The position numbers and the translations under genes are program-made. Below, one piece after another: positions 9,825 to 61,451 of a stretch of 64,000 bases of DNA. A model generated the notes under the pieces. That model made no database searches. It saw only the letters and a program-made list of their open reading frames with translations, and was not told the DNA's origin. The stretch's first letter is position 1. Each line of letters opens with the position of its first letter. Source of the stretch: Acholoe squamosa (lineage: Eukaryota; Annelida; Polychaeta; Phyllodocida; Polynoidae); the NCBI GenBank assembly GCA_949317995.1, contig OX439050.1, positions 18,058,061 to 18,122,060 on the forward strand, written 5' to 3'.

Positions 9825-9831
9825 CCCCAAT

Positions 9832-12647: not shown

Positions 12648-12649
12648 AA

Positions 12650-26730: not shown

Positions 26731-28737
26731 CTAGAACGGAGTATACTGGAAGTTCTTAATGATCCCTGTGCTCTCCAGTACACATATTAACCCCGTAGAT
26801 GTGACTACCACATCAGAAGGGCATTGTAATGCATCTCCCCGGCCAACTTGTAGGTAGATCCACATACCCTGAGGAGACACGAGCTGAAGACAGTTGTTTC
26901 CGCTATCGGCAACGATTAGGTTACCATGGTGATCCAGTCCCATGCCACGTGGCCAGCTCAGTTCACCAGGCTCCGAATTACCATGGCGACCATAACTCCC
27001 TAGCTTTCGTCCCTTTTGTGAGAACTCATAAATACAGCTTTCCTTGTGTGCAGAGATGAAAATGTGGCCATTGGGTTTGACGAGCACTTTATCCCAGCGA
27101 GAGCCCTTGTTGTACGGCGTCTGGATTTCTGACAATTTGGTGTAGGTTTGGCTGCAGAATTTCATAACGAGCTTTTGGTCGTAGTCTAGAACAATAAAGT
27201 TGGTGTTATCAGATCCTAGAGTCACACAACATGGCTTAACGAGGGATTCTTTGATGATCTTCTTGTCACGGCCATGGGGACTGAATATACAGAGAGTCGG
27301 CTTTTCCCGCACAATTACTACATCTCCGTTAGGAAGCTGTATGCCTGACAATGGTTTACCCATGTGAGGAGTACAGATCTGCCCGCGGTATTTCCCATTA
27401 GTATCAAATAAAGACACTCGCTCCAGTTGTCGGTCGGTGATGATAAGGTGCTCCCGATAGTTCAGTACAAGCCGAGAGGCATCAAAGCGACATTTATACA
27501 TCGTAGAAGGACGCGTTTGGAATTTATGAACAAGAGTAAGTTTCTTGATAAAGCGTTGTTGGTTTTGTACAAGCTTTTTGTAGGAAATCTGTACTGTGCC
27601 GAGTAATTCCACGCTTGTAGAGAGTGCAGTCTGTGCCTCACCTCCTAACATATCTATAGTAACCATCTTCATGTTAAGGGACAAATTTGTCAGGTCATCA
27701 CCAGCAAGATGGTTTAACCTGAGTTCATCTTTTAGTTGTGCAGTTAGCCCTAAAAGTTGTTTAGTTTTTGTGGCAGTAAGGACAGTGTTTAAATGGTCTA
27801 CAACTGCTCTGTATGTGTCTAGTTGTTTCTGCACTGTGCTCAGTTTGGAGGTTACAAAATGGTTCTCCTGCCAAAAATTATCCCTCGCTTTCTTCACAAG
27901 CATCTGATGCCACTCGTCAATCGCGCGTAAAATTTCCTCTCGGCGTGATTGGATCTTTTTCAGAAGACAGTTCTCCTGCGATTCCAGATCCCCTGCATAA
28001 CACTCCCATTCTCCTTTCATTTTCTCATACTCGGTAAGGCGTGATTTCAGATGGTTGGATAGGCGCTGTAGAGAAGTGCGTTCTATGTGGACTGCATTCT
28101 CAATGTTGCAGGATTTGTGTAGATTATGGTTGGTCAACTTACAGGGTACACACACAGGGGCAGCACAGTCCTCACAATAAAGCTTGGCTTCTTCATATGG
28201 GTGTTGTGTACAACTTACAAGATCCTCATCCTCATCCACACACTCCGGTTCAGGCTTTGGTTCCTCGCTGATATTAATTTTGTCGACCATCTGCCCCCCA
28301 TAGTAAGCAGTCATGATATGGTTCTTTGTCAGGTTCAGTCTCTGGTGTGCCAGAACGCACTCCCCACACAGGTACTCCCGACAGTTCAGACATCTCCGCT
28401 CGGCCACCTTATCCTCACCGCGACCTTTGCAGCTATCACATAGCTGCTCACGGGGTGATTTCTGCTTCTCCTTCTCAGCCTCAACTGCATCCTGCAAACT
28501 CGCAACAAAGAAGTTGTCCCGCAGCTGCTCAAGCCCGCCATCACCGATATGAGTGACTTGACGGCAGAGTGGACAGGGGAGTTGAGAGCTTAGGTTGTTC
28601 TGTAGAACATGCTGCTGTAGACATTGTAGACAAAAGGTGTGAAGGCACGAGAGGGACTTGGGTTGTGAGAAAGCGGTCAGACAAATCTTACATGTTAGAA
28701 ACTCCTCATTAATGACCCTTGGGAAGCTCTCTGCCAT
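26731..28737 (-). CDS. TRIM-NHL protein (RING, two B-boxes, coiled coil, NHL repeats)
   Basis: Single-exon gene of 668 aa in intron 9 of the fumarase gene, opposite strand. The start chosen is MAESFPRVINEEF; the frame stays open 20 codons further up, but those residues precede the domain and look untranslated. An N-terminal C3HC4 RING (CKIC...CLHTFC...CPLC, about residues 16-59) indicates E3 ubiquitin ligase activity. A first B-box (CDSCKGRG...C...CGECVLAHQ) and a second (CTQHPYEEAKLYCEDC...H) follow, then a coiled coil to about 400, then NHL-type repeats (about 430-668) with SGIQLPNGDVVI, KVLVKPNGHIFIS and SWPRGMGLDHHGNLIVADSG. This is the TRIM2/3/56/71-like layout; orthology cannot be fixed. 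No stop or frameshift, so probably functional. Confidence 0.92.
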   Translation of the reverse strand: MAESFPRVINEEFLTCKICLTAFSQPKSLSCLHTFCLQCLQQHVLQNNLSSQLPCPLCRQVTHIGDGGLEQLRDNFFVASLQDAVEAEKEKQKSPREQLCDSCKGRGEDKVAERRCLNCREYLCGECVLAHQRLNLTKNHIMTAYYGGQMVDKINISEEPKPEPECVDEDEDLVSCTQHPYEEAKLYCEDCAAPVCVPCKLTNHNLHKSCNIENAVHIERTSLQRLSNHLKSRLTEYEKMKGEWECYAGDLESQENCLLKKIQSRREEILRAIDEWHQMLVKKARDNFWQENHFVTSKLSTVQKQLDTYRAVVDHLNTVLTATKTKQLLGLTAQLKDELRLNHLAGDDLTNLSLNMKMVTIDMLGGEAQTALSTSVELLGTVQISYKKLVQNQQRFIKKLTLVHKFQTRPSTMYKCRFDASRLVLNYREHLIITDRQLERVSLFDTNGKYRGQICTPHMGKPLSGIQLPNGDVVIVREKPTLCIFSPHGRDKKIIKESLVKPCCVTLGSDNTNFIVLDYDQKLVMKFCSQTYTKLSEIQTPYNKGSRWDKVLVKPNGHIFISAHKESCIYEFSQKGRKLGSYGRHGNSEPGELSWPRGMGLDHHGNLIVADSGNNCLQLVSPQGMWIYLQVGRGDALQCPSDVVVTSTGLICVLESTGIIKNFQYTPF

Positions 28738-29499
28738 CTTGAAATCTTGTGGTGACCCTTCTGACAGTATCAGTTGATTTTGTATTTTGTAAATCACAAA
28801 GGAATTCCTTCATTGATTTATGAATGATAAGGGTATGAGTTTGAATGCAGAATTGCTGAGTACACTTGATTTATTGAACAAAGTAGAGATATAGTTATCA
28901 CTGTGAATGTAGTTTTCTCCCATGAATTGATTGATTTTTTTCATGAAATGTTGTGATTCATACTTCCTATGATCGCTGTCCAGTAATCCTGCAATAATCA
29001 CAGTCTTCAGGAGTCTTTAAACATAGAGTTTTCTGTACACAATAGGGGTAACTGCCACCTTTAGTGCAGCCGATGGTGTTCGGTCATGAGTTACCTCATG
29101 CTGTAAGATGAATTAAGTTGTCCCTCTCTCTGAAGTCAATTACTTGATTCCCTAGTATCAATTCTTTATGCGATGCCTTAGTTGTCCATTTTATCTCATT
29201 CAGAGATACCACTTTGTCTACCTTTGCAGGAATCTCTCCTTCTCTTTAAGAGACTTCTGTATTGAATTCATTTGATTGCCTGTGCAGAGGTGTCCAAATC
29301 CCCCTTTTGTCGGATAGGGAGTGCCATCCTTGCATATTGCAATAGTAAGTTGTGAGCTATTGATTAACTGTTTGATATGTTCTAAGATTGCCGTATTGTG
29401 AGAGTACCACCATAGACAGTAGTGTCAGAATGTCTGCTCTGTAGGTACATAAAGGCTGTATGGGCCTGTACCACTACAGCCGTAAATCCCTACATCTAA
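28738..29499. other. upstream side of the TRIM gene, no feature recognised
   Basis: AT-rich DNA that should hold the TRIM promoter (minus strand). No clear TATA box or repeat; a 63-codon reverse frame is not supported as a gene. Confidence 0.4.
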
Positions 29500-32369: not shown

Positions 32370-32584
32370 TTGGCATTTGGCCAAGTTGTATTTATGAAAA
32401 CCAACTGGAATTGCTCACTTTGTACTACTAATCAGTTTGCTGATAGCAACCAAGAAGCATATACCCGGTTACCGAGTCATGAATACAGAGCACTCTGACT
32501 AAATTGTCGACAGATAGGTCCAGGGCATCAGCTTACCCAGCTAACTGGGCCCTAGATATGTTCATTCAGAGGCCCAGCAATTGA
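32370..32584. repeat. 215-bp direct repeat, left flank of the CR1/L2-like LINE
   Basis: Near-identical to 41322-41522: three substitutions seen and one 14-bp length difference (near 32485). It ends exactly where the LINE poly(A) (poly-T on this strand) begins, so it reads as a very long target-site duplication. Confidence 0.85.
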
Positions 32585-32605
32585 TTTTTTTTTTTTTTTT
32601 TTTTT

Positions 32606-32970: not shown

Positions 32971-33380
32971 CTAGTTGTAACTAATTTTCAATTTCTGCCT
33001 CAAATTATCTATCTTCAGTATTTCAGTTTTAAATTTGACTTTAGTGGTGGCTTTCTGGATGTTCTCAGGTAGGACATTCCAGAGTGCCACCCCTCTATAC
33101 CATGGAGATCTCTTGTAATGCCTGGAAATTTTTCTTGGTAATTCAAAAACAATTTTTTTTTGTGACCGTGTATTATGTGCATGTGGCCTTTGCTCTATAT
33201 CTTTAGATTTTTTGTACATCAGACACAATAGAAGCATATCAAACCTTTTTTCCAATAAAGTTATATCACACAGCATATGTAATTCTTTAACATTGTATTT
33301 TCTAATGTTGCATTTTAGACATATCCTTAAGGCTCTATTTTGTAAGCGTTGTAAAGCTTTCAAACCTTCCTCATTACAGC
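32971..33380 (-). pseudogene. LINE ORF2 C-terminal domain, cut off from RT by a MITE
   Basis: Encodes CNEEGLKALQRLQNRALRIC, then LLEKRFDMLLLCLMYKK and SPWYRGVALWNVLPENIQKA, the usual C-terminus of CR1/L2-like ORF2. The frame continues upstream only into the TIR of the MITE. It joins the RT frame exactly when the MITE and one TA are left out. Confidence 0.88.
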
Positions 33381-33480
33381 TACCGTAATCTCCCGCGTAT
33401 AAGACGCAGCCCGCATAAAAGGCGCACCTAGAGTTTTGGAAAATTCTCAAAAAAATGAAAAATTCATAACTTTGGTTCTA

Positions 33481-34329
33481 CCGTAATCTCCCGCGTAGAA
33501 GGCGCGTCTTCTACGCCAAACAAAATGCTGCTGGGTCTTATACGCGGGAGGGTAATTGCCTTGAGTTGGGGGTGCGCCTTATACGCGGGTTTTTCCAACA
33601 TCTCATTTGGGAAAATGCGCCGATGACAGCTTGAACTCATAGCACCAGCACCGCGGCAGACCGGGAGGTGTCAACGCGCTTGGCGGGTTTGACGCCGACC
33701 GTGTGCCGATGACAGCATAGACTCAACAGGTTGACAATGCGGTGTGGCTTGCCGGGGTGTAGGGAACACGTGGGCCGATGACAGCATCGACTCATAGCGC
33801 TAGCGCCGCGGCAGACCGGGAGGTGTCGACGCGCTCGCCGGGGATAAGGCCCACCATACGCCGATGACAGCTTGAACTCATATAGCCAGCAGCGCGGCAG
33901 ACCGGGAGGTGTCGACGGGCGCTCGGCGGGTTTGACGCCGACCGTGTGCCGCTGACAGCTTGAACTCATATAGCCAGCACCGCGGCAGACCGGGAGCTGT
34001 AGATTTGCTTGGCGGGTTTGACACCGACCGTCACACCGTGTGCCGATGACAGCTTGAACTCATAGCGGCAGCCCGGTCGCTGCAGATTTGCTCGCCGTTT
34101 TTTTACGCCGACCGTGTGCCGATGACAGCTTGAACTCATATAGGGGGGTGGGGAGGGGGGCGCCTTCTACGCGAAACAGCCCCCCTGTGAGTTGGGGGGG
34201 CGCCTTATACGCGGGTTTTTCCGGAAATCGATCCAGAAGAGGTACGTGCGCCTTCTACGTGAAAAGGCCTTCTCTGAGTTGGGGGGGCGCCTTCTACGCG
34301 AGCTGCGCCTTCTACGGGGGAGATTACGG
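33481..34329. mobile_element. inner TACCGTAA-family MITE carrying a minisatellite
   Basis: Ends CCGTAATCTCCCGCGTAGAA and GGGGGAGATTACGG, flanked by TA (33479-33480, 34330-34331). Sub-terminal GGCGCCTTCTACGCG and GCGCCTTATACGCGGG motifs recur. No transposase. Confidence 0.85.
33619..34140. repeat. minisatellite inside the inner MITE, about 86-bp unit, seven copies
   Basis: GCCGATGACAGC begins copies at 33619, 33705, 33774, 33860, 33948 (GCCGCTGACAGC), 34042 and 34128, with spacing 69-94. The unit also holds CGGCAGACCGGGAG and GGTTTGACGCCGACCGTG. GC-rich against an AT-rich background. Confidence 0.85.
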
Positions 34330-34514
34330 TACTGAATGAATTTTCAAAATTCAAAAATCTATGGGTAGCTTGGGCCACCTTGGGCCCCATTTTGTCCTAT
34401 TTTGACCAAGGGGGCATGTAAGATATCAAAAGAAAGGTCTTGGTGTCACCCTTCTGGATCAAATGAAAACTAAAACCCCCGTATAAGACGCGCCTTATAC
34501 GCGGGAGATTACGG

Positions 34515-35958
34515 TAGTTGAAATGAAGGAACAATATTCTATAATTGGTCTTATTGTACTACAATATATCTTTACACTCTGATCTTGAGTCAGAAATTTT
34601 CTTAATTTGGCAAAACGAAATAATTTATTACATACATTTCTTTTAACTATTTTAATTTGCTTGTCAAAGCTCAGTTTGCTATCAATGTGGACTTCCAAAT
34701 AAGGGAAGAAGGTCACTGTTTGAACAGTACTCTCATTGAATTCTATTTTTGGATCAGAACAGTACTTTAATTTAAATGCACTACATAACCACATAAATTT
34801 GGTCTTATTTGGATTTACTGTTAGTCTGTTTTCTAGAACCCATGCTTTGAAACGCTGAACATCATTATACATCATATTCTTAATGGTCTCCGAGTCCTTT
34901 GCAGCACAATAGATTACTATATCATCAGCATACAATTTTATCTTACAGGATTGCAACACATTAACATCATCTATATATAAAACAAACAACAGGGGGCCCA
35001 GAACTGAGCCTTGTGGTACACCATACTTTATACATTTCTTTTTAGATATTTTATTACCATAACTCGTTCTCTGTTGCCTGTTTTCTAAATAACTTTTGAA
35101 CCACATAAAATTTGTCCTACTTAGCCCAAGCTTACTAAGTTTGATCAGCAATTTTGAGTGAATTACACTATCAAAGGCTTTAGTGAAATCAATGAAAAGG
35201 GCCCCTGTTATGTACCCATTATTTCTATTCTCAAACAATTCATTTACAAGATCAAAGGTAGCATCACCTGTTCCAGTACCTTTTTTATAACCATATTGAT
35301 TGTCACAAAAGGTGTTATTTCTTTTCATACTTTCACTTAAATGATAATACATAATTTTTTCAATAATCTTTGATGGCATTGGTAGGAGGGAAATAGGCCT
35401 CCAGTTTTTGACCTGTGATAAATCTCCATCCTTAGGTAATGGTTTTACTAGGGCAGAGGCCCAGTCTCTTGGAAAAATACCTTTATCTAAACTAGTCTGA
35501 ATCAGGTGGGTAGATTGATGTATTAGGCATAGCAATGCACATTGTAATATATCACCCCTTATGCCTTCAATCCCAGATGATTTATTTTTGTCTATTTCTT
35601 TTAGGGCATAATGAACATCCCATTTATTCACCTTAATGTTTGTTTCAGTGAAGTTTCCATTTATGAGTACATTTTGATCATTATCAGGTTTACATTGATC
35701 ATCACCAACCGCTGCAATATGTAGCTCTCTTCCAATATTACAAAAGTACTCATTCACATACTCACATGCTACATCAGAAGCAATGTCAATCCCTGTCTCA
35801 TGGTGTTTCATATCGGGGTATATAATGGATTTATTATTCTTAAACATGTCATTAATATGCTTCCAGAACCTCTTAGGATTTCCATTACATTCATGTAACT
35901 CTTGCATTACTCCTCCAATTTGATTTGCTTTAATCTTTTTTCTTATTAAACGAGGCAA
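34515..35958 (-). pseudogene. LINE ORF2 reverse transcriptase, C-terminus displaced by MITE
   Basis: RT blocks: KNKSSGIEGIRGDIL, LVKPLPKDGD...NWRPISLLP, ALFIDFTKAFDSVIH, YGVPQGSVLGPLLFVLYIDD, and active site LYADDIVIY. No stop or frameshift within the block. The frame stops only on entering the MITE. Upstream it continues in weakly readable form (LRASRQEVRKVVSKAL) to about 36055. It belongs with the endonuclease at 37230-38303. Confidence 0.92.
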
Positions 35959-36059
35959 GGGCTTTTGACACCACCTTTCTGACCTCTTGTCTACTAGCCC
36001 TTAGCCGAGTTTCTTATGATTACCAAGTTTCAATTGCTATTTTGGCCTCTAGCAGATTA

Positions 36060-37229
36060 CATGCACCACCAAAAAACTAATCCATTACACAGCATATGCC
36101 CTATCACACCCTTCAAAGACCCCATGAGTCATATTTCTATTTACATGAAAATCTTTGGATAAATGATGAAAAAAACATTTCATGGGGTATGCTTTTCTTA
36201 TATTTAGATTCCAAGAATTTGCATAGACCATCAAAACCTGTCATTTAGCCCTATTTCTGTTACAACTGAACCCCCAAAAATTAGTCATTTAGTGAGACAA
36301 AAAGTAAGACAAAGCTATCCATGTAATAGAATTTACATTTAAGGTGTACTTTGATGGCTGTGACATGGTAATTACTGTTGGGTTTTTTTCCTATGGAGAA
36401 ATGCATGGGATTTAGGGCTCTTTTTACCCTAAATAAAAGGGTAATCAAACTGTCTTTAACCCGACTTATAGACAGATTTCAGATTTTTTAGAAGAGGAGG
36501 GCATAGAGTAGGTATGGGGGCAGTGCGTGCCATGGTTATCTGGGCAAATATCTTTTGATATAGTTGATTTTGAAGGCCTTCCAATTTGGTTTATTGATAG
36601 GTTTAATTCCAAGATTCTCTCATAGACAAAACATTAGTCTTGCATTGGAGTTGAATCTAGGTGAGTACATAGAGGAGCCTAGTAGGTTTCTCTATGGTAA
36701 GTATCAGCAGTGAGATAGCTGGGCCCTTTAAGAAGATTGGCTTCCAATCATTTCCCATGGGAAAGGAAGGAAATGTAACAAGTAATAACAAGGTCACATC
36801 ACCTTGGCTACACTGTCTGTGATGTTAATTGTAGGATCAACAATGACTGTCTATGGATGGATGGATGGGACTATGGGACGGGGGTCGGGACGGGGGTCGG
36901 GACGGGGGGTCGGGTCGGGACGGGGGTCGGGACGGGGGGTACTCAGGCATGCCTCAATACTCAGAGCTGTGCTGGTAGTTGTGTTGGGAGGGGGAGGAAG
37001 ACAATCAAGCAGCTAAATGTGTCCTTAATGACATAGTGGGAAAGTCATGGGCAAGTCATCAAGCCTAGGCTCTGTACCCTTGCCTCGTTTCCTTTCTGTC
37101 TCTCCAAGACATACTCTCGACTCAACTGTTTTAAAATAAACGCTCTCTTGTTTTCCTTCTGCAGTCTTTGATAGCCTGTTTCTCCGTTGTACCCTTGTTA
37201 ACACTATATAATCTTAACCATCCTTCCCT
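36060..37229. other. DNA separating the LINE endonuclease from RT, unidentified
   Basis: About 1.17 kb with no long ORF. It includes a G-rich minisatellite (GGGACGGGGGTC units, about 36868-36940). The right part (about 37120-37210) has AATAAA and could be a solo-LTR or TE end; no TSD was found. It interrupts the ORF2 frame after WIDDEVMDLV. Confidence 0.5.
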
Positions 37230-38303
37230 TTAAAATACTAAATCCATTACTTCATCATCAATCCAAGATTTATGAGTTTTCTTGATTTGACGTTCAACAT
37301 AAGGATGATATTTGTTCAGATATTGGTTTATAGGAGTTACAAGCATTTCCCATAATAAATCTGGATTATCTTTAATATCAAAATATGTTTTCCAATCACA
37401 GGCATTTAAAAAATCTTTGAAATTATCTTCTGAAAAATTTCTATAATCCCTTCCCTTATACACCGATTTTTCATATGTAAAATTGTTATGCCCTCTGCAA
37501 ACATAAACAGGCACATGATCTGAAATCAAAGCCGAAATAGTACCTGAATCTATAACATTAAGGCTATTGGTAATTACATTATAAATACAGGTTCCACTGA
37601 AGGGTCGGGTTATTTCATTTATCAGAATTTTCCAACCAATATCTTTACACAAGGATCTGAAGCTTTCACAACCCACATCAGTATCATCATACATATTTAA
37701 GTTTATGTCACCTAAGATCCATGTCTCATGTCTACCTCTATTACTGTTAAATTCAAAACCTGCAATTTTCCTTAAAAACGCAATAAAATTAGGGACATTT
37801 GTATTAGGAATTCTATATATAGAGATAAGAAATATATCTTTCTCACCAGGCACACATAACATACACGCTATACTTTCATAATCAATTGTTTGAACAGTGA
37901 ATTCAGGTATGATCTTAATGTATTGACCTAAACCAGATTTCACACTGAGACCCACACCTCCACAATTTTTACCTATTCTGTCTTGTCTATATAATAACCT
38001 ATCATCTTTATTTATCAAACCCTCAGGAGACCCTGGTTTTAGCCAGGTCTCACATAAGCAGATAATGTCACTCCTATCTAATATCTTATATACCTCACTA
38101 TACTTGTCTTCAAAGCTCCTACAATTAATAGAAGAGAAAACCAGCCCCCTCTTCTCTCCGAATTTGCTAATCAAACAGACCAAGAGTTGAATACAGTAAT
38201 AGAAAAAGAAAAATGTACACAAATGATATTTAATAACAAGACGAATAAACAATGAATTCAAATCAATATGTACATAAATAATACAGTGTATTCCTTTCCA
38301 CAA
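37230..38303 (-). pseudogene. LINE ORF2 endonuclease
   Basis: Endonuclease-exonuclease-phosphatase domain: SSINCRSFEDKYSEVYKIL, LCETWLKPG (catalytic Glu), GGVGLSVKSG, ILGDINLNMYDD and ISDHVPVYVC (Asp-His). The frame ends when the unidentified insert begins, so this copy cannot make a complete ORF2 protein. The N-terminal residues of the open frame (MWKGIHCIIYV...) are hydrophobic and unlike the family, so the real start is uncertain. Confidence 0.9.
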
Positions 38304-38948
38304 AATTAACCTCGTGGAAGAGGAGACTGGTCTGTGAGCCTACCTAATTTCAGCTATACACAGCACAGAGGAAAACCCACCCACCCTTATTATAGTTATA
38401 GGACTTTGTTTTATTATGATTGGGTATCGCAAGGGTTGATGGGATTTTTGGATAGATATAGAAGACAAATATATTTTGTTTGATAAAAGTTAAGAAAAGA
38501 AAGAATGAGGTTAAGAATGTTTCATACAGAGTATCAAGATATCATAGTACAAGATAAGTGTATTGATAATAATAAAAAGAAAACGCTGTTAGTACAATCC
38601 TGGAATCTCCAATCAATAGAATACCAACTCTGTACCACATTTGTAGTTCCATGGCTCTGTTCTATGTGACTCACTTCCTAGCTGCACAAAACTATTATAC
38701 CTATGCACTATACATGTGTGCTACTATGATCAATTACTTTCTTAAGGGTATACACTCCCCTCTGAAGATATAACAAGAAAAGAAAAAGAAAAAATGGAAA
38801 AATGGCTCTGACTCAGTATATGCACTTAATAAGGGTATCATTTCTCAAAATTAAAGATATCATTGCGTCCATTTCACGGGCAGCGCAATGCTGTACCTAT
38901 GGCGACAGCTCAATTTTTGATGCCATAAGATTAACGTTGCAACACTAC
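38304..38948 (-). other. spacer between LINE ORF1 and endonuclease
   Basis: 645 bp without an ORF, longer than usual for ORF1-ORF2 spacing in such LINEs. It may be part of the element or another insertion. Confidence 0.45.
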
Positions 38949-41129
38949 TTATAATACAATCAGTGGTCTGCTTCTCTCATAATCTCTAATGCTATCCCTG
39001 ATGCGCATAGTAATTTTTCCATGCAGATTTTGCCCTTTAATTCTTCCCTGGTCATAACAGTCTGAGTGATATACAAACCCTCCACCCCAGATCAAGTCTC
39101 TACAACCTTCCACCAGGGCAATAGACCCTGTTTCCAGTAGGCTCCTTCTAGGCCCTTCACACTGATTGAATTTAGCACTGATCAGGGTGCTCATGTAGGT
39201 TTCGGATACACTATGCCAATAGTGACCAGGTGGTGCTTTATAGAACTTGCATTTGCTTTTAATTTTTCTAGCACTTGTGGTTTTCATGATGTCATCAGCT
39301 AGCCTATGATAGCCCAATTCTTTGAGTTTACAAAAGAAATAACCCTGTTCGACACTGTTGAACTTCATTGTCTGACCTAAGACATGTGCCTCAAAAGAAC
39401 ATGGATACCAGTTACTTAGGAAGCTGTTCTTTCCTCTGTAAACTAATCCAGCCCTTGTTTTCCTTTGATGAGTTTCTGTGCTATTATCTTCATCATCTTC
39501 ATCCTCATCATCAGTGCTTATGGAACCAGGCGATTTCATTTCAGCCTCAGTGGCAGCACTAGTACCTGGTTTAGGGTCAGATTTTGCTGGTGTTGATTTG
39601 ACATTTTCATGCCCCTCTTTCACAGAATTGTCAGATTTATCTGTGCTATTATTGAGGATAGGCGTACTGTTCATATTTGAGATGTCAGATAAGGTCAGTG
39701 AGTCATTGACCTCATGTAGCCTTGAGTTTTGGAAGTAGCTTCTGTCAATAATTACTCCAGATTCAATCAGCTTTGGTCTAAAACCCATTTTTACTTCAAG
39801 CCCACATACTCTTTTATGATCACGCACTTCTTTGGGCTCATTATGCTGTATCCACACTTGGTCTTCCTTTACTGGTGTTTTCAACTTCCACTTGTTATCT
39901 AACACAACCCTTTTGATCTTTATGTTAGAAAAACTCACTTTAATTGGCGATCTCCAGCCATTTCCAGTACCTTTAATGTCTAAGATATCGTTCCAAGGGT
40001 CATAACTAACACCCATAGCGACACATAGTCCATCAAAGGTAGCATACAAGTTTTCACCAAATTGGTAGTGTATACCTTTAATAATGATGTTCCTTTCTAG
40101 AATAGGCTGTGTATGCTTTACACCACTAAGCTGTTTGACTACACCTGCACACATACTTAACACATTCCTGGTCTCCTCTTTAGTATTCAGGCCTGAAGTA
40201 GATTGACCCACTTCTGGCACACTTAATTGTTTTGCAATCATACCATCAATGATTACCTGCTGTGACTGCACTTTCTCTCTTAGTGAATCAACTTTATCTA
40301 GCCTTTCAGTAATGTAGTTGTCATCTCTTTGCACACTCTTCTGTAATCTCTTTGATACTGCACACTCTACTAGTTTATCAATGTCTAATTCATCAATTAA
40401 CTGATCCTTTAACTGATCAATGTTTATAGGCTCCTGGTTATTCAGCCTTTGATTGACGTTTTCAATTTCATCTTTAAGGCCTTTTTGTGTTTCAAAATAC
40501 TTTTGCATGTCTTTTTTCACCTCCTCCTTATAACCAGTTAATTGCCCACTCACATTTGTAGCATATTCATATCTACTCTTACACTCAGCCTTTATTGATT
40601 TCACCTCTCCCTGTAGGGTGTTAATCTGCTGTTCATGTATGTTTAAACGGTTTGTATTGCTTGCTAATAGTGCTTTGTGTTGCCTCAAGTTAGTACTCAA
40701 GTCATTGATACTATTGGTTAGATTGCTGTTCATTTCAGCAATCATTTTAGCTAGAGCACTTATGGTATTTACATTCTCTAGGCTGCTAGAGCCAACTGAG
40801 CTTTTCTCACCTCTGGTAGTTGGTGGGGGAGGTAGTTGTTCAACAACAGTAGACCTTTTTACTCCCTGGTTACCCATTAACACACCTCCATTCAGGAAAT
40901 AGTCCCATTGGACCGATGTATGAGTATCATCCAAGCTGATTTTTTTAGATAATTGTCCTTGTGTTGGACTCCCCTTACCAGAAGAATCTCTAGAGTACTT
41001 CCTCTTCCTAGCATTAGGTGTCCCTTCCATATGATGGCATCTAGTTGGTGTATCAGTTAGGTAATCCATGTTGACTTCACAAGCAGTTGGCACTACTTTC
41101 ATGTTACAGAAAACCAAGAAACTCAGCAA
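38949..41129 (-). CDS. LINE ORF1 protein with coiled coil, RNA-binding-like region and C-terminal NADAR domain
   Basis: One uninterrupted frame of 726 aa. Residues about 1-100 are Ser/Lys-rich. About 110-300 is a long coiled coil (LTNSINDLSTNLRQHKALLA and on). About 340-460 reads as an ORF1-type RNA-binding fold (ERNIIIKGIHYQFGENLYAT; IKVSFSNIKIKRVVLDNKWK). An acidic linker follows (DDEDEDDEDN). Residues about 568-715 (nucleotides 38952-39440) follow the YbiA/NADAR pattern in order: SFLSNWYPC, VEQGYFFCK (Glu at about 594), SARKIKSKC, YWHSVSETYMSTLISAKFNQ, LLETGSIALVE, LIWGGGF. NADAR proteins act on ADP-ribose or NAD-related N-glycosidic bonds; a role in a LINE is not known to me. The coiled-coil part is like other LINE ORF1 proteins. 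Confidence 0.82.
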   Translation of the reverse strand: MLSFLVFCNMKVVPTACEVNMDYLTDTPTRCHHMEGTPNARKRKYSRDSSGKGSPTQGQLSKKISLDDTHTSVQWDYFLNGGVLMGNQGVKRSTVVEQLPPPPTTRGEKSSVGSSSLENVNTISALAKMIAEMNSNLTNSINDLSTNLRQHKALLASNTNRLNIHEQQINTLQGEVKSIKAECKSRYEYATNVSGQLTGYKEEVKKDMQKYFETQKGLKDEIENVNQRLNNQEPINIDQLKDQLIDELDIDKLVECAVSKRLQKSVQRDDNYITERLDKVDSLREKVQSQQVIIDGMIAKQLSVPEVGQSTSGLNTKEETRNVLSMCAGVVKQLSGVKHTQPILERNIIIKGIHYQFGENLYATFDGLCVAMGVSYDPWNDILDIKGTGNGWRSPIKVSFSNIKIKRVVLDNKWKLKTPVKEDQVWIQHNEPKEVRDHKRVCGLEVKMGFRPKLIESGVIIDRSYFQNSRLHEVNDSLTLSDISNMNSTPILNNSTDKSDNSVKEGHENVKSTPAKSDPKPGTSAATEAEMKSPGSISTDDEDEDDEDNSTETHQRKTRAGLVYRGKNSFLSNWYPCSFEAHVLGQTMKFNSVEQGYFFCKLKELGYHRLADDIMKTTSARKIKSKCKFYKAPPGHYWHSVSETYMSTLISAKFNQCEGPRRSLLETGSIALVEGCRDLIWGGGFVYHSDCYDQGRIKGQNLHGKITMRIRDSIRDYERSRPLIVL

Positions 41130-41321
41130 AAACTATAGAATTATGACCAACCCGTAGTATAATCAATAAATCCACATGTACCAGCGGGTTCACAGATAGT
41201 TCATATCACTCTGTGACTGTTCCTATAGTAATCCTTGCCTTCAATCAGTCCAAAAATACCAAGAACCCAGCGAGCGAAATCCAGCGCGACTACTCACTCA
41301 TGGTCCCTCTCTAGATGGCAT

Positions 41322-41522
41322 TTGGCATTTGGCCAAGTTGTATTTATGAAAACCAACTGGGATTGCTCACTTTGTACTACTAATCAGTCTGCTGATAGCA
41401 ACCAAGAAGCATATACCCGGTTACCGAGCACTCTGACTATATTGTCGACAGATAGGTCCAGGGCATCAGCTTACCCAGCTAACTGGGCCCTAGATATGTT
41501 CATTCAGAGGCCCAGCAATTGA
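41322..41522. repeat. 201-bp direct repeat, right flank of the LINE
   Basis: Second copy of 32370-32584. Begins TTGGCATTTGGCCAAGTTG at the LINE 5' edge and ends GGCCCAGCAATTGA. Confidence 0.85.
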
Positions 41523-42038
41523 TGTCCACTGAAACTAAGTCCCATGAGTTTGAGGGCAGTTTGTGGCCAAATGATGCCTGTGTGCATTAATTAAAGTAGA
41601 CCCCTATCTTGTTTTGACCTTTATGAAGCTGTCCTACTTACTGTGATAATTTATAATTGTCAATATATCCTCCCTGTGTGTTGGAATTGATCACACATGT
41701 CTCAAATGTCAACAAAACATCTCATCCAACAATTTGGGCTTGAACTTCCTGTCCCTAGATGGTCCCTAGGTGGCAGGCCTTTACAGTTCATATTTTACTC
41801 ACCAGAGGGACCTTGTGTCCCTCCCACCTGTACCACCACAAAGACAACAGTCAGACCGACCAGGAGCCAGCACTTGCCACCTTGCCCAACATGTCTGACT
41901 GAGTTCTAGATATCAGGTTACAAAAAACAGAGGCATGGATATGATTTCACATTTCAAAACAATACACAACAAGTAGGTAGGTCCTAGAGTTAAGATATCA
42001 AAGACCAACCCCACATAAGACTAGAGACCAAGTTTTCA
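41523..42038. other. intron 9 DNA, nothing recognised
   Basis: Non-coding; a short frame at 41697-41909 shows no domain. Confidence 0.4.
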
Positions 42039-43146: not shown

Positions 43147-43221
43147 TTAAAAGTGGCATCCTCTATCCCTCAACACTCCTTGAATGCATTTGGAATTATT
43201 GGCAAATAATGATTGTGCTTA

Positions 43222-43511
43222 CCGTAATCTCCCGCGTATAAGGCGCGTCTTATATGGGGGGTTTTAGTTCTCATTGCATCCACAAGGGGGACTCCAAGAC
43301 CTTTTTTTGATATATTACATGCCCCCTTAGCCATAACAGGATATATGGGGGCCCTGGGGGGTCCATGGGGACCAAGTAACACATAGGTCTTTGAATTTTG
43401 AAAATTCATTTAGTAGAACCAAAGTTATGAATTTTTCATTTTTTTGAGAATTTTCCAAAACACTAGGTGTGCCTTATACGCGGGCTGCCCCTTATACGCG
43501 GGAGATTACAG
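43222..43511. mobile_element. TACCGTAA-family MITE, intact copy in intron 9
   Basis: 290 bp with ends CCGTAATCTCCCGCGTATAA and GCGGGAGATTACAG, flanked by TA (43220-43221, 43512-43513). It serves as the uninterrupted reference for the nested copy at 33383-34514. Confidence 0.85.
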
Positions 43512-43644
43512 TACCACGCTTTCAGCCCTATTCATTCCAAATATTTTACTTCCTGAACATGCAATTTATCTACTAAGAGATTGGATGACAGTGTGGGATA
43601 GTAAAAATACAAGACTAATATTTTCAACCTATTGTATTTGGTAG

Positions 43645-50723: not shown

Positions 50724-50785
50724 TTGGGTACAAAGAATAGTCTTCAAGAACCAGGATATTAAGCAAGGATCCCAAGCACATCAAC

Positions 50786-51280
50786 ATGTCACAGACTGGA
50801 GCCAGGCATAGAGAACCAAGCAAGATGCTAGACCCAGATAGTGTTAGGTTGGAAAAAATGGTCACATTACGCCGTTCAAGAGGTGGCCATGCTGGTGCAT
50901 TCACCAAGAAGGTAAATGACTTAATGCATAAGATGGACTGTGGTGTTGATTTACCTGATGTTCAAGTGGCACTTGAGAAAGCTACATCTGCATTTGTGCT
51001 ATTCTCTAAAGTGCATATGGACTACATGAGTCTGGTTATGGACATTGAGCCTCATAGTGCCCTCAATGAAGACACCATATATACCAAACTTGAGGAAAGG
51101 TATAATGAGGCCAAGAGACAGTATACCTCATTTGTTGAACAACATCAACTACAAGACAGTATTACACCTCATGACAGTGTGTCCCAGGCTGGCACTGGTG
51201 CCACCTCAAGGGCTTCACGTGCATCAAGTACCCGAGTGAAGGCAGCTGCTAAACGGGCTGCCCTTGAAGTCAAAGCTTAG
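50786..51280 (+). pseudogene. BEL/Pao Gag N-terminal part, ends at an in-frame TAG
   Basis: 164 codons from the ATG at 50786 (MSQTGARHREPSKMLDPDSV). Basic and helical; typical of the start of BEL Gag. The TAG at 51278-51280 is in frame with everything downstream to 57151, so it is a stop within one long frame, not a frameshift. Confidence 0.75.
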
Positions 51281-52621
51281 GCTCTTCAGGAGATGCAGGA
51301 GCTTGAGCTTATGCAGCTACAAATGGAACAAGAAGCTGAAGAGCAGCGAGCTGAGGCACGTCGCCGAGATGAGCAGCAGCGAGCAGAGGCACGCCGCCGA
51401 GGAGAACTACAGCGAGCAGAGGCACGCCGCCGAGAGGAACAGCAACAAGCAGAGGCACGCCGCCGAGAAGAGGAGGCTGTACGTCAGCAGGAAGAGGCTG
51501 AGCGTCAGCAGGACGAGGCTGAATATCAAAGCAGGCAGAGGGAGCGGCTTCTTGAGCGCGAAAGAAAGAAGCTTGAACTACGCCGTCAGCAGCTACAGAT
51601 GAAGGCTGAAATGGATGCTGCGGCAGCAGAAGAAGAGGTTCTGACCAAGTTCACTGAGTACCCTGATTATACATATAAGGGATCAAAGGTCAGTCAAAAT
51701 GTTACTGATAAATATCTTGGTAATAGCATTGCTTCTGTGTCTAAGAAACATGTAGCTAGAGTTGATAGTGATGTAAAGTTGCAGTGTGGGGGGATATTTG
51801 ATTCTACTACTGAAAATGAAGTCTTACATCATCTGGGGGGTCCTATGGGTACTAGTACTGTCAGGAAACCTACCACCTTAAGCTCAGATAAGAATCACCC
51901 AGGAGTTGTAGAAAAGTCAATCCTCAACCCCCTTGCAGCCGAGTGGACAGGATCACCTATACCAGGAAATACTGATAGAAAGTCAGATGGGCAGTTCAGC
52001 TTTGAACAAGTAGCTAGGATCATTGAACTAGTTAAATCACCACAAGCATCAGTCAAAGATAGTGCAAAGCAGTCACCTGAGTCTGTCCCTAAGGATTTTG
52101 GTCAAAACAGCCAGGGGACTGGTTATGCAGCCCATGAGTCTCAAATGATGATACAACGCCAGATGATTGATGTCATCTGTCTCCCAAAGACAAGCCTGAT
52201 AAAGTTTGATGGTGACCCCATGAAGTATTGGACCTTTATGAATGCCTTTGATACCAGTGTGGATAAGGCCAACATTGAGGCTAGTGATAAACTAACTAGG
52301 CTGTTTGAGTATTGCACAGGAAAGGCATTAAAGGTGATACAGCCATGTGCACTAATAATCCCATCAGAAGGCTATAAGAAGGCAAGAGAACTCTTAAAGC
52401 AGAGATTTGGTAATGACTTCATGATCTCAAAGGCATGGATCTCAAAGATTACTGAAGGCCCAGCTCTGAAGCCAAATGATGGTGAAGCCCTGCAGGACTT
52501 TGCTGATGATGTTAGGGGCTGCATGGAAACACTACGAGCTATGAACAAGCTAAAGGAGGTAGACTCTCAGGATAGAATGGTAAAAGTCATGACAAGACTT
52601 CCAATGTACCTCCAAACTTGA
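51281..52621 (+). pseudogene. BEL/Pao Gag continuation, coiled coil, ends at an in-frame TGA
   Basis: Same frame. A Glu/Arg/Gln heptad-like coiled coil with repeated EARRREE units (51300-51600), then a capsid-like region of the DUF1759 type (IKFDGDPMKYWTFMNAFDTS, LFEYCTGKALKVIQPC, LLKQRFGNDFMISKAWI). Interrupted by TGA at 52619-52621, after which the frame resumes with WRKEAYRIRERFG. Confidence 0.8.
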
Positions 52622-52684
52622 TGGCGTAAGGAAGCTTATAGGATCCGAGAGAGATTTGGTGAATATCCAAACTTCCACGAATTT

Positions 52685-55600
52685 GTGCAGTTCCTTGAGA
52701 TGGCTGCTGGAGAGGCCAATGACCCAGTATTTGGACATGTAGTGTCAGCAGCCAAAGAACCTAAGGTTAAGCCTTCTGTGCCAAAGAAGAAGGGATCAAG
52801 CTACAATGTGAATGTGACAGATACTGGCACTTTAAGCCAAAATGGCAAAACAACACCTGATCCACCCCAGAAGGAGAATAAACCCAAGGAGTACAAGTGT
52901 CGGATTTGTGATGCCAATGGTCACAGAGTTAGTGGATGTGACAAATTTAAGAAGATGTCCCTGGAAAAGAGATGGGAAGTTGTGAAAGAGAAAAGACTAT
53001 GTTTCAATTGTCTTGACTTTGGTAATCACACTTCTAAGGAGTGTAAAAGACCAAAAGGCTGTCAAGAAAAGGAGTGTAAAGGGAAACACTCAACATTGCT
53101 GCATCAACCAGTAAAGGTCACCACTACTCAGTCCACAAAGGATGGAGACCAAAAGGAAGAACAGAAGTCTCAAGACAAGCAGGTAGAAGAAGCCAAAAGT
53201 TATGCATGTGGGCAATCGAATGTTGAAAGCACAAAGGTCGCCTTACCTATAGTTTCTGTGTATGTCAGAGGGAAAGGTCAGACTAATTACACACGCACAT
53301 ATGCTCTGCTTGATCCAGGAAGTAACAAGACCTTCTGTTCAAAGGACTTGGTCCAGAAACTTGACCTTAAAGGACAAACAACCTGTCTGTCCCTAGAAAC
53401 CCTTGGTGAAGGTAAAAGCACAGATGCCCTAGAAGTTTCCCTGGAAGTGACAGCCACTACAGGCCCCAAGAAGAAACGCAAAGTGGTTCAGCTGGAAAAG
53501 GTCTATGCACTGGCCAGGTTCCCTAACCTAAGGGACAACATACCATCTGCAGCAGACGTTAAGAAATGGGATCACCTTAAAGATTTGACATTGTTCCCGA
53601 AGGAGAAGTCAGATGTCACTCTACTCATTGGGCAAGATGTCCCAAGTGCTCTGATTCCACTTGAAGTTAGACAGGGAAGAGAGGGTGAACCTTATGCCAC
53701 TAGAACAAGTCTAGGATGGACACTCAATGGACCGCTACAAAGTGGGAATCCAAAAGACCCTGCTCTCTGTCATTTCATACAGGCCAATCAAGGACCAGAA
53801 GTAAGCTTAGAAGCTCAAGTGGAGCAGTTCTGGAAGCTGGACGTGGGTCAGACTTTAGCTGGTAGCCTTCCACAAATGTCACAAGATGACAAAAGAGTTC
53901 TTGATGTATGGAATGATTCTATCCGGCTCAAAGATAGACATTATGAGATGGACATACCCTTTAAGGTTACACCTCCAGAGCTACAAGATAACAAGAAAAT
54001 GGCAGAAAAACGCCTACAAAGCCTTGGAAGAAGACTATCCAAGAACCCTGAACTTCATAAACTTTATAAGGCAGGGATAGAAGACTTAGTCCAGAAAGGG
54101 TATGCTGAACCTGTTCAGGAGGATGAGAATGATCAAGGTAATGGAATCAAGTGGTACATTCCTCACCATTCTGTCACAAGCCCAAACAAGCCAGGAAAGC
54201 TTCGAATCGTCTTTGATTGTGCAGCAGAATATGATGGAACATCACTGAACAAACAAGTGCTGCAGGGCCCTGATATGACCAACAAACTTATTGGTGTGCT
54301 ACTAAGATTTAGGGCAGACCAAGTAGCAATCATGGGAGATATAGAAGCCATGTTCCATCAAGTGCGAGTATCTCCGCAGCATAGAGATGTACTAAGGTTC
54401 TTGTGGTGGAAAGATGGTAACCCTGATTTTCCCCTAGAGACTTACAGAATGGCAGTACATTTGTTTGGTGGGGTATGGAGCCCTAGCTGTGCAAGCTTCG
54501 CTCTTAAACGTACAGCTGAAGACCACAAGACAGAGTTCAGTGAAGAAACAGTGAAAACTGTAATAGAAAACTTCTATGCTGATGACTGCCTTAAATCAGT
54601 ATCGACTGTGGATCAAGCAAAGAAGCTGGTGAGTGATCTCTGTCAGCTGTTGAACCTTGGAGGTTTCAGGCTCACCAAATGGATCTCTAACAGCAAGGAG
54701 GTAATAGAATCCATTCCAACTGAAGAGAGAGCTAAAGAAGTAAAGGACCTTGACCTTGACTCAGCAGCACTTCCTGTGGAGAGAGCACTAGGTGTCCAAT
54801 GGGATACTCAAGAAGACATATTCAGCATCAAGATCAAGCAGAAGGAAGCAACCTTCACCAGGAGAGGTCTTCTCAGAGTGGTCAGTTCTGTGTATGATCC
54901 ACTGGGACTTGTAAGCCCATTCATACTTCTAGCAAAGAAGATATTCCAAGATGAGTGCAAAAGAGATAAAGGATGGGATGATAAACTGGAGCCTGACAAT
55001 GCAAGGAAATGGAAAAAGTGGTTAGAAGACTTGCAACAATTGGAAGAGTTCAAGGTGAGACGTTGCCTTGTGCCGCAAGACTTTGGCAAATGTGTAACAA
55101 TCGAACTTCACCACTTCTCTGATGCTTCAGAGGAAGCATATGGCACAGCTTCCTATCTGCGCATGGTCAATGAACAAGGAGAGCTTCACTGCTCATTTCT
55201 GTTAAGCAAATCAAGACTTGCTCCCATCAAGCACATGACTATTCCAAGACTAGAGCTATCAGCAGCTGTGGTTGCTGTCAAGATGGATAGCCTGCTCCGT
55301 AGAGAGCTACGCCTGGAAATCGGTGAATCCATCTTTTGGACTGACAGCATGATCGTCTTACAGTATATCAAGAACACTACCAAGAGGTTCCAAACTTTTG
55401 TTGCTAACAGAGTTGCAGTTATCCATGATGGATCATTGCCAAGTCAATGGAGGTATGTAGACACCAAGTCCAACCCAGCTGACGATGCTTCTCGTGGTCT
55501 CAGTGCCAAAGAAATCCTGTGTAGCAAAAGGTGGAAACAGGGGCCGGACTTCTTGTGGAAGGATGAGTCCCAGTGGCCAGATGTACCTCCAAGATCCCCT

Positions 55601-57151
55601 GACCTACTAGATGATGACCAAGAAGTCAAGAAGGAAGCCAAGGTGTGTGTCACCCTCACTGAAACAGAAGATCACTTGGAACAAATGTTCAAGAGGTATT
55701 CAAGCTGGTACCGTCTAAAAAAGGCTGTTGCTTGGCTAAGTTGCTTTGTTCAATGGCTCAAAAAGGGAAAGCCTAAACTCAAATCTGATCTCAGTGTGGA
55801 AGAGCTACAAAGGGCTGAGAAAGACATTATCAGATATGTACAAAGGACATCTTATGCAGATGAGCTCAGAAACCTAAAATCAGGCAAACAAGTCTCACAA
55901 AGGAGCTCCATCTACAAACTAGAGCCGTTCAAAGATTCTGATAACATGCTCCGAGTGCAGGGCAGGCTCCAAAGTGCACCAATAACTGACTCTGCCAAAC
56001 ATCCTCTCATTTTGCCAAAGGACCATCATATTGCTGAGCTCATTGTGAGACACACACACGAGTGGACTTCCAGGCACTCAGGACGAGAGTATGTCCTGTC
56101 CAAGGTCAGAGAGAAATACTGGATACCACAAGGACGTCCCTTGGTAAACAAAGTGCTACAGAACTGTGTAATATGCAAGAAATTGAGAGGGAAATTAGGT
56201 GTTCAGAGAATGGCAGACTTGCCTACAGACAGAGTCACACCTCACAAGCCACCCTTCACCTATACAGGAGTGGACTGTTTTGGCCCATTTTATGTCAAGA
56301 GGGGCCGGAGCCAGGAAAAGAGGTATGGTTGTCTATTCACCTGTTTGACCACAAGAGCTATACACATTGAAATCCTGAGCTCAATGGATGGGGACTCATT
56401 CATCAATTCCCTGATAAGGTTTATCGCTCGCAGAGGAGTTCCTGAAAAGATCAGATCAGACAATGGAACCAACTTTGTTGGTGGCAACAAGGAGCTGCAG
56501 GAGTCAATACAAAAGTGGAATGAAGATCACAAGACAAAGGAGAATCTTCTGATCAGAGAAATCAAGTGGGAGTTCAACCCACCAGCTGCATCCCACATGG
56601 GTGGAGTATGGGAAAGACAAATCAGGACAGTCCGCAAGGTATTGAATTCCATACTCAAAGATCAAGTCCTTGATGATGAGAGGTTAAGCACAGTATTCTG
56701 TGAAGTTGAATACATTGTCAATGGTAGACCTTTGACCCCTGTATCAGATGACCCAAAGGACTTGAAACCTCTAACCCCAAATGACTTGCTTCAACTAGGT
56801 GTAGGACTCAGAGCTTCCCCAGGAACCTTCCAAAAGGAAGACATGTATGGTCGTAGGTGGAGGCATGTACAGTACCTGGCAGACCAGTTCTGGAAACGGT
56901 GGGTAAAAGAGTATCTCCCTACACTGCAGCTTAGACAGAAATGGTTAGACACAAAGAGAAATATCCAATCTGATGATGTTGTATTGGTTATGGATGAAAA
57001 TCTACCTAGAAATAGTTGGCCACTTGCCCGTGTTGTCAAAACCTTCCCAGGTAAAGATGGTCTAGTTAGATCTGTTGAGGTCAAAACTGCTACAAATGTA
57101 CTTGTCAGACCTATTGATAAAGTTTGTTTGCTTGAGGCTGTCACATCATAA
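52685..57151 (+). CDS. BEL/Pao Gag-Pol: zinc knuckles, protease, RT, RNase H, integrase
   Basis: 1488 codons without interruption, in the same frame as the two upstream pieces; the frame itself resumes right after the TGA at 52619, so the ATG at 52685 need not be a real start. Order: CCHC-like knuckles (CRICDANGHRVSGC; CFNCLDFGNHTSKEC, about residues 70-120), aspartic protease (ALLDPGSNKTFCS, about 205), RT (IMGDIEAMFHQVRVS about 548; FYADDCLKSV about 630), RNase H (FSDASEEAYG about 810), HHCC zinc finger (about 1120-1170) and integrase core (GVDCFGPFYV, RSDNGTNFVGG, PPAASHMGGVWERQI). Protease with DPG and RT with YADD fit the BEL/Pao lineage. Stop TAA at 57149-57151. Confidence 0.93.
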   Translation: MQFLEMAAGEANDPVFGHVVSAAKEPKVKPSVPKKKGSSYNVNVTDTGTLSQNGKTTPDPPQKENKPKEYKCRICDANGHRVSGCDKFKKMSLEKRWEVVKEKRLCFNCLDFGNHTSKECKRPKGCQEKECKGKHSTLLHQPVKVTTTQSTKDGDQKEEQKSQDKQVEEAKSYACGQSNVESTKVALPIVSVYVRGKGQTNYTRTYALLDPGSNKTFCSKDLVQKLDLKGQTTCLSLETLGEGKSTDALEVSLEVTATTGPKKKRKVVQLEKVYALARFPNLRDNIPSAADVKKWDHLKDLTLFPKEKSDVTLLIGQDVPSALIPLEVRQGREGEPYATRTSLGWTLNGPLQSGNPKDPALCHFIQANQGPEVSLEAQVEQFWKLDVGQTLAGSLPQMSQDDKRVLDVWNDSIRLKDRHYEMDIPFKVTPPELQDNKKMAEKRLQSLGRRLSKNPELHKLYKAGIEDLVQKGYAEPVQEDENDQGNGIKWYIPHHSVTSPNKPGKLRIVFDCAAEYDGTSLNKQVLQGPDMTNKLIGVLLRFRADQVAIMGDIEAMFHQVRVSPQHRDVLRFLWWKDGNPDFPLETYRMAVHLFGGVWSPSCASFALKRTAEDHKTEFSEETVKTVIENFYADDCLKSVSTVDQAKKLVSDLCQLLNLGGFRLTKWISNSKEVIESIPTEERAKEVKDLDLDSAALPVERALGVQWDTQEDIFSIKIKQKEATFTRRGLLRVVSSVYDPLGLVSPFILLAKKIFQDECKRDKGWDDKLEPDNARKWKKWLEDLQQLEEFKVRRCLVPQDFGKCVTIELHHFSDASEEAYGTASYLRMVNEQGELHCSFLLSKSRLAPIKHMTIPRLELSAAVVAVKMDSLLRRELRLEIGESIFWTDSMIVLQYIKNTTKRFQTFVANRVAVIHDGSLPSQWRYVDTKSNPADDASRGLSAKEILCSKRWKQGPDFLWKDESQWPDVPPRSPDLLDDDQEVKKEAKVCVTLTETEDHLEQMFKRYSSWYRLKKAVAWLSCFVQWLKKGKPKLKSDLSVEELQRAEKDIIRYVQRTSYADELRNLKSGKQVSQRSSIYKLEPFKDSDNMLRVQGRLQSAPITDSAKHPLILPKDHHIAELIVRHTHEWTSRHSGREYVLSKVREKYWIPQGRPLVNKVLQNCVICKKLRGKLGVQRMADLPTDRVTPHKPPFTYTGVDCFGPFYVKRGRSQEKRYGCLFTCLTTRAIHIEILSSMDGDSFINSLIRFIARRGVPEKIRSDNGTNFVGGNKELQESIQKWNEDHKTKENLLIREIKWEFNPPAASHMGGVWERQIRTVRKVLNSILKDQVLDDERLSTVFCEVEYIVNGRPLTPVSDDPKDLKPLTPNDLLQLGVGLRASPGTFQKEDMYGRRWRHVQYLADQFWKRWVKEYLPTLQLRQKWLDTKRNIQSDDVVLVMDENLPRNSWPLARVVKTFPGKDGLVRSVEVKTATNVLVRPIDKVCLLEAVTS

Positions 57152-58812: not shown

Positions 58813-59247
58813 CTAATAGTGTATACTGCCTTTTGGCACTGCTGAAAGTCCTTGAAACTTTACAGTACTAAATTTGAGTAAGTTTTCTTTTTTCTCACAT
58901 TCTTCTAGTTGCTCTTTGTTTTTGCTCTCTTTCAACCACTCTGGCTGAGAGTTCCACAGAGTGTAGCCTCTATACTCGGTAGAACGCTTGTAGCCTTCAG
59001 TGTTTGGCCTCTTCAGAGGGAACAAGAGTTTCTGCGAGGCCATCGTGGACATGCCACCTGCCTCCAGCGGAATCTTTTGAAACCTCTCTCGACCTTTGTG
59101 GTAGTTCTTATGCATCAAGCCGAGCATCAGTTCATCCCTCCTCCTGGAGAGTTTGCGAACATCACTCAACCTGTGCAGCTCATCAACAGAGTATGTCTTG
59201 TTCGGTCTATTGTGACGTCCTGAGCCCCTGTTTTGCAGTTGTTGCAA
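58813..59247 (-). pseudogene. C-terminal fragment of a CR1/L2-like LINE ORF2
   Basis: 144 codons: LQNRGSGRHNRPNKTYSVDE, LSRRRDELMLGLMHKNYHK and STEYRGYTLWNSQPEWLKES follow the same pattern as the LINE C-terminus at 32971-33380 (LQNRALRI..., SPWYRGVALWN...). No RT remains next to it, so it is a 5'-truncated copy. Confidence 0.7.
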
Positions 59248-59322
59248 CTTGTCTATAAGTTGAACTGAGTTTTTGTGTAATTAACAGAGTAAAACCATGA
59301 GATAAATACAGAGTTCAATTCA

Positions 59323-59424
59323 GATTTGTCATTTCAAGTTGTTTCTTCACTTGTGGGTGGCAGGCTGCCTCGTGGGATATAGCCTGTCACCCACGCATAA
59401 AGAAACAATCTGAAATGACAAATC
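59323..59424. repeat. 102-base inverted repeat (hairpin)
   Basis: Arms start GATTTGTCATTTCA and end TGAAATGACAAATC, with TTGTTTCTT, GTGGGTG and CAGGCT also paired: about 40 of 47 positions. The size fits a small palindromic MITE or a pre-miRNA-like hairpin. Confidence 0.7.
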
Positions 59425-60244
59425 ATTGTTGATCTCTGCCTATTTACTCCACTCCCTCTACTGTCCACCAAACCTAAGATGCAAGATGTGAATATCAATC
59501 AACTAACGTTTGACATAAAACAGTCATAGTCATTGATTAATGGTAATGTAGGAAAAAGGGAACGAAAAAGAGTGTCATGGAAAAACCATCAATATACACT
59601 GCTTGAACTACATTCAAGAAACGCGGCGCAAAAGAGAACACCTACAGTGGACAGCTCGGTTGGGACCTTCCCCTACATACTCTGTCACTTTGTATAATAA
59701 TATACTGTTTCCCAAAGAAATATGAGGTTTAAAATAAGCGCCAACATGTTCCCCTTCAATTCCACATAATTAGAAGAGGGGATGGTTGACATTTATTATT
59801 TTTCAGGCGGATTCTGTGAGCAATTTTAAGTTGAATTTTCTTTATTGTCTCAGTTCAAAGCATAGCGACAACTACGAAGTAACCAAGTACATATCACATT
59901 ACCATAGAACAAAGAAGTCTAAACAGAAGAGAATTGATATATTGAAAATTGGGAATACTGAGACTAAAGAAGGTAGTGGACCTCATCCCCACCACATAGG
60001 GTGTATGGGTTGATACTTCTGGTCCAACCTGACCTGTTAGTATATCTGTATAGCGTTGACACACAAATTGAGAATATATAAAAAGAAATGTACCAACATG
60101 GAAAGGAAAAATAGTTAAAGACCAAGGAATTATTTTAGAAATCAATTTAGTGTAATTTAGAATAAAGAGAGAGGGGGGGGCAAAATATAAATTGGTTAAG
60201 TAATAAATCAAAGTAAAGGAAAAAAGGTTTAATAGTTGGGGTGC
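59425..60244. other. non-coding, nothing recognised
   Basis: The right part (from about 60170) may be the 3' untranslated region of the minus-strand LINE. Short frames lack domains. Confidence 0.4.
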
Positions 60245-61450: not shown

Positions 61451-61451
61451 T

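Follow-up and report, generated by a model that had tools for sequence, protein, structure and literature searches.

The NADAR-bearing LINE of the window

The window is a stretch of 64,000 nucleotides from the polychaete Acholoe squamosa, and its minus strand carries a LINE whose first open reading frame ends in a NADAR (YbiA-type) domain. ORF1 (38949..41132, minus strand) is open over 727 amino acids from stop to stop, with the first methionine at residue 11. Its layout, divided by eye in the N-terminal part, comprises a likely coiled coil (about residues 110–300), an RNA-binding-like part (about 330–500), an acidic linker and the NADAR domain. ORF2 lies on the same strand in three pieces with foreign sequence between them, so that an intact ORF1 and a broken ORF2 stand side by side, as an initial annotation of this DNA had described. 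The endonuclease piece (37230..38339) gave no Pfam match at 0.01 and was recognized by its blastp similarity to the N-terminal regions of other ORF2s (best E = 2.4e-37). The reverse transcriptase (RT) piece (34495..36000) matches PF00078 (E = 4.3e-36), and of 8000 candidates scored for it 4700 reached E ≤ 0.001; the C-terminal piece (32971..33477) aligns with the C-terminus of an RT-family profile at 97 bits. The interruptions are a later insertion with TACCGTAATCTCCCGCG ends, found from its repeats (33378..34494), and a second foreign stretch identified by eye (36001..37118); the limits of both are approximate. Repeats with inverted TACCGTAATCTCCCGCG ends are found at 43220-43513 as well as in this ORF2 insertion.

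The 3′ end of the LINE is marked by a poly-A tail on the minus strand, seen as 21 T on the plus strand (32585..32605), the last base of which may belong to the adjoining duplication. A direct repeat of about 202 bp surrounds the unit and is read as a target-site duplication, with a 5′ copy of 202 bp (41322..41523) and a 3′ copy of 216 bp that directly follows the poly-A (32370..32585). The copies share 199 identities and differ by 3 mismatches and one 14-nt indel; such a length is unusual for the target-site duplication of a LINE. ORF1, the ORF2 pieces and the poly-A all lie between the two copies, and the NADAR domain was therefore part of the inserted RNA. The unit thus has an ORF1, an ORF2 (now interrupted) with endonuclease and RT, a poly-A tail and a target-site duplication, and the proposal that the NADAR carrier is a LINE ORF1 is borne out.

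The NADAR domain occupies residues 568-716 of ORF1 (38985..39431, minus strand) as delimited by PF08719. PF08719 scores 85.1 bits against ORF1 (gathering score 35.1; E = 8.6e-24) over positions 9-163 of its 163, which confirms the C-terminal NADAR domain that had been proposed from the sequence by eye and refutes the alternative of no NADAR match. TIGR02464 (riboflavin-intermediate N-glycosidase) is also above its cut-off (77.9 vs 73.7). AlphaFold2 modelled the last 174 residues with a mean pLDDT of 89.9 and a pTM of 0.86, using a 46-row alignment that includes 44 viral-contig relatives and one metagenome protein. Among solved structures, the sequence match was 8bau (“NADAR domain-containing protein”; E = 0.002), which we take to be the Phytophthora nicotianae NADAR enzyme, while E. 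coli YbiA (2b3w) at E = 0.13 was not significant alone. The middle of ORF1 had no database match and nothing significant among solved structures, so its RNA-binding label is tentative.

Neither ORF1 nor the NADAR piece by itself retrieved a relative from viral contigs; the alignment retrieved 96, of which 80 were kept. In the protein database, none of 342 candidates for the NADAR region among ORF1-sized proteins reached E ≤ 0.001, and the NADAR piece alone gave one match (P0001) among 14 candidates. A tblastn search of phages with the NADAR piece returned 425 records, all below 60% identity. Rfam gave no match.

NADAR-ORF1 fusions across the host genome

Searching the host genome with the window ORF1 DNA gave at least 50 matches, 40 of the 154 candidates having been scored. 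Thirteen further ORF1 copies were fetched that span query positions 1-2181, NADAR included, at 95-98% identity, together with two more distant relatives at about 80%. Most copies of this family carry stops or shifts; one (L176) keeps a frame of 729 amino acids.

The Pfam NADAR profile, run on the whole 1.48-Gb genome, yielded 3224 loose candidates, the best 150 of which were scored. All 150 were above the Pfam cut-off and 143 had no internal stop, as read in a top-scoring set that is biased to intact copies; the genome therefore holds at least 150 NADAR matches. The two best-scoring loci are probable host NADAR genes (L174, 4755-5420, and L175, 4444-5184), with 183 and 168 Pfam bits and every tallied active-site residue kept. 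We read 18 further loci at 10 kb, picked for large and varied frames, and in all of these the NADAR lies in a frame of 447-828 amino acids. At 17 of the 18 chosen loci, a search with the RT profile found a downstream same-strand frame that contains an RT, L172 being the exception. The distance from ORF1 to ORF2 among NADAR LINEs ranges from 4 to 3456 bases and is similar within the pairs L166/L167, L164/L170 and L161/L162. Clustering of the NADAR rows at 60% identity gave 18 LINE-type clusters, with an RT seen in 12, and about a dozen LINE families of this genome carry the NADAR-ORF1 fusion. The NADAR parts of L183 and L184 do not differ, and the two may be a single locus that was assembled twice. 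The label “A” in the NADAR tree also covers L191, L207, L218, L241, L254, L263 and L268, beside which no RT was seen.

The fusion might have been a chance event or the capture of a host exon by a single copy, and the existence of the probable host genes L174 and L175 is in favour of this. The 13 same-family copies and the many other LINE families with the fusion speak against such an origin, and both host NADARs retain an active-site arginine missing from the LINE domains (see below) and are placed apart from the domain of the window LINE. We regard this explanation as extremely improbable. Single-copy capture or chance fusion was rejected on the 13 copies and the at least 150 genome matches, and the occurrence of the fusion in several elements, which the initial annotation had named as a support, has been borne out.

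Active-site residues of the LINE NADARs

Residues were mapped from alignments on the Phytophthora enzyme and tallied in 114 distinct LINE rows: 14 come from the window family, and 100 are drawn from the 148 scored matches that are not host-gene candidates. The window domain belongs to the same profile family as the Phytophthora nicotianae NADAR and E. coli YbiA, and has equivalents of E43, K50, K75, W89, E125, D130 and W133. It differs from them in its fusion to ORF1 and in two replacements, Cys for G78 and Lys for R79 (Lys629, 39246..39248, minus strand); cellular and phage NADARs carry Gly-Arg here, and both positions are at least 90% conserved in the 46-row alignment; for the L1-like group described below the alignment is thin. 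In the available text of the enzyme study, E43 and E125 coordinate the distal ribose and R79 contacts the pyrophosphates (PMC11543638). A change at the E125 position of the E. coli C7 NADAR abolished efficient guanine de-ADP-ribosylation, the E43-position mutant was contrasted with it as having a smaller effect, and the K50 counterpart is counted as catalytic (PMC11543638, same portion).

The initial annotation had singled out the glutamate of VEQGYFFCK as the candidate catalytic residue. This residue, Glu595 (39348..39350, minus strand), is indeed conserved and corresponds to E43, but the YbiA-class glutamate equivalent to E125 is Glu675 (39108..39110, minus strand), which sits in ALVEGCRD, in the last core strand. 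The two glutamates are each kept in 112 of the 114 rows, the W89 equivalent in 113, and the C-terminal G, N and G in all. At the R79 position, by contrast, Arg is found in no LINE row (H 46, D 43, K 24, N 1), whereas the host L174 and L175 retain it. The K50 equivalent is R in 47 rows, D130 is kept in 102, and the equivalents of K75, D130 or W133 are altered in some LINE families. By these alignments, the catalytic glutamates are conserved in the LINE NADARs and the putative phosphate site is altered in a family-specific manner.

Selection on the NADAR domain

Comparison of the window with its ~80% relative L189 gave a pN/pS of 0.11 for NADAR, 0.22 for the RNA-binding-like part, 0.36 for the linker and 0.39 for the coiled coil; this is a single pair, and L189 is decayed (longest frame 218 amino acids). 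The 14 near copies in the window family gave a pooled pN/pS of 0.58 in NADAR vs 0.44, 0.51 and 0.64 elsewhere, with no extra constraint on NADAR, as expected if copies mostly decay after insertion. Of three near-copy pairs, L157-L160 showed a ratio in NADAR that exceeds the one outside it.

Between families, NADAR is better conserved than the remaining ORF1 in amino acid identity by 5-26 points in 5 of 6 distant pairs and by 2 points in L158-L171, at distances where pS is near saturation. L164 and L170 are 89% identical in NADAR and 63% in the remaining ORF1. Over all LINE pairs, which are non-independent and include decayed copies, the median dN/dS was 0.83 at dS below 0.02, 0.41 at 0.02-0.05, 0.13-0.19 at 0.05-0.4, 0.09-0.15 at 0.4-1.5 and 0.42 at 1.5-3, the last being near saturation. 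The low values at intermediate divergence are signs of purifying selection on the LINE NADAR, which the initial annotation had named as a support; they are seen against L189 and at dS 0.05-0.4, but not among near copies. We consider it almost certain that the NADAR of ORF1 is a genuine, element-encoded and selected domain.

Reverse transcriptase types and the origin of the domain

The NADAR LINEs carry three RT types: the window type (motif PQGS--GP), an L1-like type (RQGCCLSP; L157, L160) and a third (QGGVLSP; L156, L161, L162). Going by its motif, PQGSVLGPLLF, the window RT is presumably that of a Jockey-superfamily (CR1/L2 group) LINE, and the QGGVLSP group is presumably RTE-like. In the RT tree, L157 and L160 group with a human L1 fragment (100/99, 36% identity), unlike the window RT, which stands apart from it at 26%; this fragment is the sole labelled L1/Tx1 reference, and the tree was flagged because the long branches of the second and third types meet. 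The window-type NADAR LINEs fall in about five lineages of this tree, mixed with database RTs of undescribed ORF1. For some clusters (L164 with L170 and L159; L171 with L173) the NADAR and RT trees agree, and NADAR and RT were therefore inherited together in those clusters.

In the NADAR tree, the L1-like group has a long branch (2.4) and joins the NADARs of host, bacteria and phages (98/97), and the remaining two RT types are placed beside a short phage YbiA group (100/96); the LINE rows alone as one side have a support of 58/62. The host L174 and L175 fall outside the grouping of the window's domain. A single clade of all LINE NADARs is absent from the best tree, yet is not rejected (AU p = 0.088). 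LINEs thus likely captured NADAR at least twice, as judged from these trees.

The initial annotation knew of no described case of such a fusion, and here a brief earlier report overtakes it. The accessible part of this 2025 paper describes NADAR in the Pol of Ectocarpus Gypsy and mentions it, from a Repbase query, in several Crassostrea gigas Tx1 LINE ORF1s (PMC12477816). The oyster elements resemble the window's in having NADAR in a LINE ORF1; Tx1, however, belongs to the L1 superfamily (PMC11203168, excerpt), and the window RT is apart from L1 as represented by the human fragment. The Ectocarpus element likewise encodes a YbiA-type NADAR but is an LTR element, with NADAR in the N-terminal region of Pol (PMC12477816, same part). 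Among the papers listed in our literature searches (supplements, preprints and most subscription papers being outside their scope), none described NADAR in a further LINE type, its selection there or the pocket change. CR1/L2 elements offer a parallel, as their ORF1s have gained esterase and PHD domains and ORF1s shuffle between LINEs; those are other domains, and NADAR is not named in the available text (PMC4120745).

Possible functions of the ORF1 NADAR

Nearly as probable as not, in our view, is that NADAR acts as a tethered hydrolase that strips ADP-ribose-type or related N-glycosidic adducts in the element RNP. After a LINE family's ORF1 protein had gained the enzyme domain, ORF1p would coat the element RNA and bring NADAR to the RNP. 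There it would hydrolyse the N-glycosidic bond of a nucleotide adduct, such as ADP-ribosyl-guanine or a related one, on element RNA, cDNA or target DNA. The adduct would be a modification by host or stress enzymes that otherwise blocks reverse transcription. Since the pyrophosphate site is changed, the substrate would not be quite the one that cellular and phage NADARs use. Every E. coli and phage NADAR/YbiA protein tested acts on ADP-ribosyl-guanosine, according to the portion available of PMC11125620.

Reversal of host ADP-ribosylation, proposed in the initial annotation, fits the conserved glutamates. The loss of R79 in 114 of 114 rows and the lack of a DarT- or Scabin-like match do not favour its simplest version. 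DarT (PF14487) had no match in the host genome, in a search where one control matched, and Scabin-like proteins (PF22596) had none in a search where the controls were also unmatched; introns split genes in both. The DarTG1 antitoxins (BC4488 NADARs) share a superfamily with the window NADAR but have Asp as the defining residue where it has Glu, and their partner DarT is the one unmatched here. Clam CARP-1 is a lead for a host guanine ADP-ribosyltransferase (PMC11209040, excerpt).

The missing pyrophosphate-site Arg and the changes at K75, D130 or W133 in some families would also suit a non-catalytic reader, which would bind ADP-ribose, NAD-capped RNA or a nucleotide ligand and help to target or assemble the RNP. 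Each glutamate is kept in 112 of the 114 LINE rows, although NADAR identity between families is 38-89% in the measured pairs; this argues against the reader, which we find rather doubtful. Unlikely, too, is an N-glycosidase acting on another substrate, such as a YbiA-like ribosylamino-pyrimidine or damaged guanine, which would clean element RNA or cDNA or make abasic sites for the AP-type endonuclease. The TIGR02464 score and the altered ADP-ribose contact are consistent with it, but the E. coli YbiA segment itself retains Gly-Arg at the altered site.

Should the tethered hydrolase be a counter-defence enzyme, animals would be using a so far unrecognised nucleic-acid ADP-ribosylation, or a related base modification, against retrotransposons. 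The role of NADARs in animals is described as unclear (PMC11125620, in part). It is a speculative and improbable extension that LINE lineages within a single animal acquired NADAR repeatedly and retained it for counter-defence with a shared shift in phosphate binding. The presence of NADAR in about a dozen LINE families with long frames offers a testable link between nucleic-acid ADP-ribosylation and the control of animal retrotransposons, and the LINE NADARs are natural variants with a changed substrate pocket. NADAR is also found in RNA viruses of nematodes, arthropods, annelids and bivalves (PMC9503650, excerpt), which suggests a shared pressure.

Other features of the window

Another LINE, with an RT of the same broad type, lies at 58813-63071 on the minus strand, its ORF1 being beyond the window, and the plus strand has a LINE with RNase H at its C-terminus (8952-13483). 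The plus strand also has a retroelement with an open frame of 1509 amino acids (50741-57151), presumably BEL/Pao-like. A single open frame of 692 amino acids on the minus strand (26731-28809) has RING, B-box and NHL matches and is TRIM-like.
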